From Thermoanaerobacter sp. A7A (GTDB lineage Bacteria > Bacillota > Thermoanaerobacteria > Thermoanaerobacterales > Thermoanaerobacteraceae), in NCBI RefSeq assembly GCF_000445185.1, contig NZ_AVAF01000115.1, forward strand, positions 1 through 53,942: DNA of 53,942 nt, given 5' to 3'. Shown here piece after piece: positions 8,721 through 53,942 of the stretch. Both the position numbers and the translations under genes were made by a program. The number at the start of each line of letters is the position of its first letter. The first letter of the stretch is position 1. The notes below the pieces were generated by a model. That model was given only the letters and a program-made list of their open reading frames with translations, made no database searches and was not told the origin of the DNA.

Positions 8721-8738
8721 CACAGGAAAAGTCCTGTG
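8721..8738 (+). repeat. Left copy of the duplicated terminator hairpin flanking element 1
   Basis: A self-complementary stretch of 18 bases: CACAGGA, an AAAG loop and TCCTGTG. It differs by one loop base from 9004-9021. No T tract follows; element 1 begins at the next base. It lies two bases after the PAP2 stop codon and looks like the target-site copy of that gene's terminator. Confidence 0.75.
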
Positions 8739-9003
8739 CAGACTGTAGGCAAACTTTCGTAAAGGAGATATTTTGCATAAGGAGTGACTTGTTACAAAGC
8801 GGTAACAAAACTTAACAAGACCGAGGGTGGAGGCAGGGCCGAAGCCATGGATGGCGGAGGCGGGCACCTTAAGGCATGGATGCCGATTGTGCCCGGTACC
8901 CTGCCGGAACCTGAAGGTCGAGTTTAGTTTTGTCGCTTTGGAACATCGGAGCAACGATGCAAAATATCTCCTTTGAATATTTTTTAACTTTGTCAACAAA
9001 CTG
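8739..9003 (+). mobile_element. Element 1: 265-bp non-coding palindromic element with terminal inverted repeats
   Basis: The left end CAGACTGTAGGCAAA and the complement of the right end, CAGTTTGTTGACAAA, are imperfect inverted repeats. Inside, AAAGGAGATATTTTGCA (8761-8777) pairs perfectly with 8958-8974. A further long arm (about 8790-8822 with 8916-8944) closes a GC-rich core with two small hairpins, GCCAT-GGA-TGGC and GGCAT-GGA-TGCC. It has no plausible gene. It is flanked by 18-bp direct repeats and shares its ends with elements at 13922 and 53843. It behaves like a MITE or a mobile structured RNA; no transposase for it is in the window. Confidence 0.75.
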
Positions 9004-9027
9004 CACAGGAGAAGTCCTGTGTTTTTT
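9004..9027 (+). terminator. Terminator hairpin (right duplicate) with T tract
   Basis: CACAGGA, a GAAG loop and TCCTGTG (9004-9021), then six T. This is the copy that kept the T tract. Before insertion of element 1 it would have been the PAP2 terminator. Confidence 0.8.
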
Positions 9028-52461: not shown

Positions 52462-53817
52462 ATGAAGAAATTGATAGGTTTTGATTATTCAAAAGCTCTA
52501 CAATTTGTAAGTCAAAAAGAAATTGAATATATGGAAAAGCATGCAAAGTTATCTCTTGATATGGTGCTTAATAAAAATGCTCAAGGGAATGACTTTTTAG
52601 GATGGGTAAGTCTTCCCAAAGATTATGATAAAGCAGAGTTTGAACGCATTAAAAAAGCAGCACAGAAGATTCAATCAGATTCTGATGTGCTTGTAGTTAT
52701 AGGTATAGGTGGGTCTTATTTAGGGGCAAGAGCGGCAATTGAAATGCTTTCTCATTCCTTCTATAATTTATTGCCAAAAGGTAAGAGGAATACGCCGGAG
52801 ATTTATTTTGCTGGAAACAGCATAAGCTCTACGTATTTAAGCGATTTACTTGAACTTATAGAAGGCAAAGATGTTTCTATAAATGTAATATCTAAATCTG
52901 GCACTACCACAGAGCCTGCGATAGCTTTTAGGGTTTTTAGAGATTTCCTTGAGAAAAAATACGGAAAAGAAGGGGCTAAATCAAGAATATACGTTACAAC
53001 AGATAGAGAAAAAGGAGCGCTTAAAAAACTGGCCGATGAAGAAGGATATGAAACATTTGTAATTCCTGATGATGTTGGAGGAAGATACTCAGTTTTGACA
53101 GCAGTAGGCCTTTTGCCAATAGCAGTGGCAGGCATTAGTATAGACGAGATGATGCAGGGTGCTTACGATGCTTCCATGGTTTATACCAAAAATGACCTTA
53201 ATGAAAATATAAGCATGCAGTATGCAATTTTGAGAAATATTTTGTACAGAAAAGGCAAAGCTATAGAAATACTTGTAAATTATGAGCCAAAGCTTCACTA
53301 TTTTTCTGAATGGTGGAAACAGCTTTTTGGAGAAAGTGAAGGTAAAGACAATAAGGGAATTTATCCTGCTTCAGTAGATTTTACGACAGATTTACACTCA
53401 ATGGGGCAGTTTATACAAGAGGGAAGCAGAAATATTTTTGAAACAGTTTTAAATGTTGAAAAACCTGTTAAAGATATAGTTATAAATGAAGACAAGGGCA
53501 ATATAGATGGGCTTAACTTTTTAGCAGGAAAAACTATAGATTTTGTCAATAAAAAGGCTTTTGAAGGTACATTATTGGCTCATACAGATGGGAATGTTCC
53601 TAACCTTGTAGTAAATATCCCTGAAATATCAGCTTACTATTTTGGCAATCTGGTCTACTTCTTTGAAATGGCTTGTGGCATAAGTGGATATATAAATGGG
53701 GTCAATCCATTTGACCAGCCAGGAGTAGAGGCTTACAAGAAAAATATGTTTGCACTTTTAGGAAAACCAGGATATGAAAAAGAAAAAGAATTGTTAGAAA
53801 AAAGATTAAGAGGATAA
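52462..53817 (+). CDS. pgi: Glucose-6-phosphate isomerase
   Basis: Interconverts glucose-6- and fructose-6-phosphate. 451 residues, the usual short Firmicute form. Motifs: [31 protein letters not shown] (phosphate loop), [14 protein letters not shown] with the substrate Arg, [12 protein letters not shown] with catalytic Glu/His, and the C-terminal Lys region [22 protein letters not shown] precedes ATG. It joins the starch genes to glycolysis. Confidence 0.96.
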
Positions 53818-53823
53818 ACTAAA

Positions 53824-53842
53824 AGCCGGGGTTTTCCCGGCT
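53824..53842 (+). terminator. Terminator hairpin of pgi, lacking its T tract
   Basis: AGCCGGG, GTTTT loop, CCCGGCT. The sequence goes straight into element 3 instead of a T tract, the same arrangement as the left flank of element 1. Confidence 0.75.
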
Positions 53843-53942
53843 CAGTTTGTTGACAAAGTAAAAAAATATTCAAAGGAGATATTTGCAGTCGTCGTTCCGA
53901 TATTCCAAAGCGACAAAACTAAAGCTCGACCTTCAGGCTCCG
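53843..53942 (-). mobile_element. Element 3: partial copy of the element-1 type, inverted, cut by the window end
   Basis: Begins CAGTTTGTTGACAAAG and follows the complement of the right end of element 1 for the full 100 visible bases with about ten differences, including the AAAGGAGATATTT arm, TTCCAAAGCGACAAAACT and CTCGACCTTCAGG. It is in the opposite orientation to element 1. About 165 more bases and the far end should lie outside the window. Confidence 0.8.

Follow-up and report, generated by a model that had tools for sequence, protein, structure and literature searches.

The window, that is, the whole 53,942-bp stretch of DNA analysed here, is the complete contig C115 of the draft genome of Thermoanaerobacter sp. 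A7A (G000, 178 contigs). Near its right end lies a putative glucose-6-phosphate isomerase gene, named pgi in the initial annotation, whose DNA is 79-96% identical to that of nine congeneric genomes and whose stop codon, TAA, was read directly from the sequence at 53815-53817. Downstream of pgi, the hairpin AGCCGGGGTTTTCCCGGCT passes directly into CAGTTTGTTGACAAAG... without a T tract on the plus strand, T-richness being confined to its far (minus-strand) side. The initial annotation had described this junction as a terminator hairpin devoid of a T tract that runs into an inverted copy of an element present elsewhere in the window (element 1), and this description was confirmed, as 53843-53942 proved to be the reverse complement of 8905-9003 (92% identity, E 3.6e-33). 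Within the same genome, the pgi-side stretch gave 34 matches and the element-1 region 42, most of the latter with the same sharp limits, numbers that place the repeat far beyond chance. Since the window is a whole contig, the contig break lies inside the element: 100 bp of the 265-bp unit are present at pgi, the remaining ~165 bp fall, unseen, in the assembly gap, and the next 250 bases are absent from C115. The features are listed in Table 1.

Table 1. Coordinates of the pgi end of the window and of element 1.
Feature	Position	Strand	Basis
pgi (putative glucose-6-phosphate isomerase)	52462..53817	+	open frame in the sequence
Terminator hairpin of pgi, AGCCGGGGTTTTCCCGGCT (gene-proximal copy of the doubled target)	53824..53842	.	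sequence; single-copy homologue in the G005 empty site
Inverted 265-bp IS1182-type MITE, first 100 bp as far as the contig end	53843..53942	-	repeat and similarity matches
Left copy of duplicated terminator hairpin CACAGGAAAAGTCCTGTG, element 1	8721..8738	.	single hairpin in the G006 and G008 empty sites
Complete 265-bp MITE (CAGACTGTAGGC...GTCAACAAACTG)	8739..9003	+	own-genome and congener matches; RNA fold z -12
Right copy of duplicated hairpin CACAGGAGAAGTCCTGTG, then T tract TTTTTT	9004..9021	.	copy comparison; empty sites

Element 1 consists of CACAGGAAAAGTCCTGTG, the 265-bp unit and CACAGGAGAAGTCCTGTGTTTTTT. The unit runs from CAGACTG to CAAACTG, where conservation stops and flanks that differ from copy to copy begin; its terminal repeats read CAGACTGTRG.CAAAC and CAGTTTGTTGACAAAG, and in complete copies the CAGACTG/CAGTCTG end adjoins the second hairpin. 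Being short, non-coding and multi-copy, with inverted ends that match those of an autonomous IS (see below), it is a MITE. Of the nine congeneric genomes searched, eight gave 18-34 matches, about 20 being typical, and one (G002) 11 weak ones, and outside the genus single weak matches only were found. A variant of 331-333 bp was also observed (L124-L126), and L124, the one copy read throughout, has an additional long internal hairpin (CCCGGCACTCAAGTAAG...CTTACTTGAGTGCCGGG). Comparison of the element-1 site among relatives revealed that two genomes (G006 and G008) have a single hairpin followed by TTTTTT and are thus empty, and that a third (G003) carries the same insertion as the window. Three others (G004, G005 and G002; window 8721-9021 compared with L237-L240) have different or opposite-orientation elements at this terminator, marking its hairpin as a recurrent target.

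At pgi, the initial annotation had predicted that the bases beyond the contig end would hold the rest of the element (about 165 bp, ending close to CAGTCTG-like bases) and then a second copy of the hairpin followed by a T tract; the predicted length agrees with a 265-bp unit. Contig C116 opens with AGGGTTTTCCCGGCTTAACTTGTGAC (longer read, AGGGTTTTCCCGGCTTAACTTGTGACAAGAG), in which a second copy of the 19-base hairpin lacks its first 4 bases, lost in the gap, and matches at 14 of the 15 that remain. An exact search of the genome for a second AGCCGGGNNNNNCCCGGCT found the window copy alone, the first 4 hairpin bases being absent from C116. The gene order in relatives is pgi, the terminator and then the convergent gene carried by C116, which by its sequence looks like a glycogen/alpha-glucan phosphorylase gene. 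In G005 (the MAG Thermoanaerobacter sp. Bu09), pgi is followed by one hairpin, AGCCGGGTTTTTCCCGGCT, and then directly by the C116 sequence without an element (94.7% identity over 1200 bp downstream, 95.9% on the pgi side); this is the empty site, pgi and the C116 sequence being contiguous there. The prediction of a second hairpin held, while that of a T tract failed: the hairpin on C116 is followed by TTAAC / TTAACTTGTGAC..., i.e., by TT only and then by a probable remnant of an older element, and the empty site in G005 likewise has no tract. Over the 90 bases beyond the hairpin, similarity to the MITE reaches a local score of 34, shuffled sequences giving at most 22, and this ~90-bp stretch (TTTTGCAAGGGATTGCGACTCGTGACAAAACAGCAACTAAACTTA, positions 16-105 of C116, L060), which G005 has too, is probably a decayed older insertion at the same pgi terminator, judging by its sequence. 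Seven more contig junctions are broken in the same manner (C44/45, 80/81, 81/82, 83/84, 108/109, 147/148 and 175/176), both sides of each carrying hairpin sequence of the same terminator.

What the initial annotation stopped short of was the identity of the element as an IS1182-derived MITE and the rule that it duplicates its target hairpin. This rule was evaluated in 78 complete MITE copies, those of G005 being left out as probable gap-filling chimeras. A hairpin with a stem of 6 or more, offset 0-2 from the right end of the element, was found at 66 of the 78 copies, a strong flanking direct repeat at 60, and both at 57, in comparison to 28/3000 mismatched pairs of left and right flanks and 129/4000 random 46-mers in the controls. 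The end of the repeat coincided with the end of the hairpin within 1 bp in 54 of these 57 copies, and the 21 copies that lacked one or both features were older, diverged or truncated, apart from a few left unexplained. As some copies are orthologous between genomes and the counts are not all independent, 54 distinct sites is the safer number; at 46 of these a T- or A-rich tract lies beside the hairpin (11.7% of random windows have one), making the target an intrinsic terminator, with a hairpin and a T tract on at least one strand. One-sided tracts were split 11 versus 15, without an orientation preference. As to the omitted copies of G005 (L187-L204), many are near-identical and carry the same foreign flank (AAAAGAGAGTATTTCGTATACTCTCT) beside local hairpins, which looks like gap-filling chimerism in the public assembly.

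Could the repeats be the product of an ordinary fixed-stagger transposition that merely favours the neighbourhood of hairpins? Any DDE element makes direct repeats, and the median here is 24 bp; yet the repeats range from 17 to 37 bp, their length is that of the hairpin (Pearson r 0.91, rising to 0.99 in the 34 perfect repeats) and the ends of the two coincide, which makes a fixed stagger very unlikely. That the hairpins belong to the element and travel with it between sites would account for nearly every copy being hairpin-flanked. However, the hairpin sequence varies from site to site, with left matching right, and equals the native terminator in the empty sites, and the conserved sequence of the element stops exactly at CAG/CTG; these findings refute carried hairpins, a reading to which we assign next to no probability.

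A search for the end pattern yielded pairs 1560-1566 bp apart in two congeneric genomes (G008 and G006; 1566 bp in the copies of G006), and these units carry one transposase of 505 amino acids that belongs to the IS1182 family (NF033551, 489.6 bits versus a cut-off of 270; Pfam PF13751 and PF05598). This is an autonomous IS, with terminal inverted repeats (CAGACTGTTGACAAA... and CAGTTTGTTGACAAA...) around a single long transposase open reading frame, and whole-hairpin repeats of 20-32 bp flank 9 of its 10 copies. The remaining copy (L122, G006:C1:399533-401098) has a 6-bp repeat, CTTCAC, and no hairpin. The MITE and the IS have only their outermost ~16 bp at each end in common, and these are nearly identical. 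Given these ends and the same target rule, the MITE is most likely mobilised in trans by the IS1182 transposase. The genome of strain A7A itself contains fragments of the IS, and several of these lie where a contig ends.

Group IIC introns also insert beside terminators, and the RNA folded from the MITE unit plus its hairpins greatly exceeds shuffled sequences in stability (z -12), as long imperfect inverted repeats would lead one to expect; these two points favour an intron or another structured RNA element. The window gave no Rfam match at the gathering score, domain V intron RNA included, and terminal inverted repeats, target duplications and an IS1182 IS with the same ends all speak against such a reading, which is scarcely credible here.

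Two further observations concern the IS. Between the transposase gene and the nearby 5' end of the element, the IS has a hairpin of its own followed by a T run (GGGAACCC...GGGTTCCTTGTTTTTTT; L114-L123), which probably limits read-through from the host gene. Because of this internal hairpin, we dropped the idea that the 'attenuators' described upstream of ISBma2 transposases (PMC2965389) are duplicated target hairpins. The four near-full IS1182 copies of Thermoanaerobacter wiegelii Rt8.B1 (L242-L245) gave no flanking repeat, since in each of them the same sequence, TCGAGTAGGAGCTGAATAATTATTTTATTCAGCG..., interrupts one terminal repeat ~7 bp away from the IS terminus, which looks as though the IS end were itself the target of a further mobile element.

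Beyond the genus, Bacillota IS1182 elements with CAG..TGT.GACAAA-like ends duplicate hairpins as well; examples are L312 (AGGACTTTTTAGTCCT) from a different family of the same order, L251 (AGAAATAGTTTGAGACTATTTCT) from a MAG of the Erysipelotrichaceae and L255 (AGCATCCTAGCGGATGCTT) from Paenibacillus, with further cases in G041, G057, G073, G104, G172, G234, G264 and G319. In a transposase tree, from which L255, L316 and L329 were omitted as misread or very long rows, 14 transposases of such CAG-end elements formed one side of a branch (support 100/99). A hairpin repeat was found in 12 of the 14; one of the other two is cut by a contig end (L324), and the other (L320) has different hairpins on its two sides, which suggests that copies at two terminators have recombined. 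Outside the genus, the rule is kept in every CAG-end element of the clade with cleanly comparable flanks, L320 excepted. A further element that duplicates its hairpin (L333) fell in a different part of the tree. Another clade (support 99/97) was formed by eleven elements with GGGGCTGT-like ends; the flank scan, which missed the ends of a few, detected a hairpin repeat in none of them. The GGGGCTGT-end elements examined (L293-L308, L313, L321, L325, L327 and L328) lack hairpin repeats, and several have an A-rich left flank and a T-rich right flank, a sequence pattern consistent with IS1272-like stem-loop replacement.

Such replacement, in which the target hairpin is deleted and not duplicated, has been published for the IS1182 family. 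IS1272 and TnSha1 of Staphylococcus, members of the IS1182 family, target stem-loops in both orientations, many of them terminators and without a primary-sequence consensus (PMC4923244, PMC5678879), and in family, targets and orientation they resemble the Thermoanaerobacter element. IS1272, however, is reported to remove the terminator stem-loop and to generate no TSD (PMC4923244, PMC5678879), whereas the Thermoanaerobacter element duplicates it. Although the GGGGCTGT-end members of the phylum, free of hairpin repeats, lend replacement some support, hairpin repeats flank most copies studied here, and at two loci a single hairpin in the empty site became two after insertion. This refutes replacement for the MITE, and as an account of our data we consider it highly improbable.

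Taken together, we regard it as very probable that the IS1182-derived MITE and its IS insert into terminator hairpins and duplicate the whole hairpin, the copy at pgi being one such insertion. Both stand at intrinsic-terminator hairpins in either orientation, with the whole hairpin doubled. In the mechanism that we propose, the MITE would be moved in trans by the transposase of the 1560-1566-bp IS1182-family IS, and the doubling would arise from strand transfer at the 5' foot of the hairpin on each strand. In an extruded cruciform, geometry would bring both feet together at the four-way junction regardless of how long the stem is, so one enzyme could make repeats of 17 to 37 bp. The gene-proximal hairpin would lose the T tract and the distal copy would keep whatever came after the original hairpin; transcription would thus be expected to cross the element and end at the distal hairpin, and where the far hairpin keeps its T tract the host gene would still have a terminator. 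At pgi, the insertion probably entered a terminator that already held a decayed older element.

The transposase may instead meet the hairpin in single-stranded DNA, or while the site is being transcribed or replicated, with the same products. Terminators are transcribed and could form hairpins on exposed single strands, and genome data cannot separate these intermediates; the two orientations with respect to the T tract are about equally frequent (11 and 15), which argues against it, and we consider this route a real possibility, though the less likely one. Returning to the cruciform, it is about an even call whether a clade of IS1182 transposases reads DNA shape by cutting the two 5' feet of a terminator cruciform, such that the hairpin sets the duplication length and the duplicating and replacing modes are alternative strand choices at the same junction; the duplicating mode would be that of the CAG-end elements, and the replacing mode that of IS1272-like and perhaps of GGGGCTGT-end elements.

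That IS1182 members target terminators or hairpins is already published. Besides IS1272, every insertion site except one of ISCbo5/ISBma2, an IS1182 element of Clostridium botulinum group III and C. novyi, formed a hairpin at the end of a gene, which was taken for a transcription stop signal (PMC3098183); these gene-end targets are like ours, and hairpin duplication, length tracking and a MITE are unstated in the available text of that report (PMC3098183). Duplication of the stem-loop was drawn by Wan et al. in 2017 as a hypothetical pathway b (their Fig 13), beside the removal reported for IS1272, and whole-hairpin duplication here is the outcome of that pathway (PMC5678879). In the same genus, an IS1182-like element of Thermoanaerobacter kivui has been implicated in the megatransposon TnCO-1; it belongs to the same family as ours, and this 2025 paper, whose available text gives no target rule, remarks on how little information exists about these elements (PMC12056078). 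Bacterial MITEs of the MITEAba12 type are likewise short and gene-less, with IS-matching inverted ends and target duplications, but unlike them the MITE described here targets a terminator hairpin and its duplication is the hairpin itself (PMC6382973). Within the open-access literature, which defines the scope of this claim and lies apart from ISfinder and subscription papers, we found no whole-hairpin duplication rule and no description of this MITE.

Most transposases fix the length of the target duplication; here, the secondary structure of the target appears to set it. The many natural insertions and empty sites supply data by which a proposed branch of the IS1182 insertion model becomes testable. 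A hairpin-duplicating element explains at least eight contig breaks in the assembly, and it is relevant to the IS1182 element that has been linked to the CO-adaptation megatransposon of T. kivui. It would also show how an element multiplies in a compact genome without the loss of terminators.
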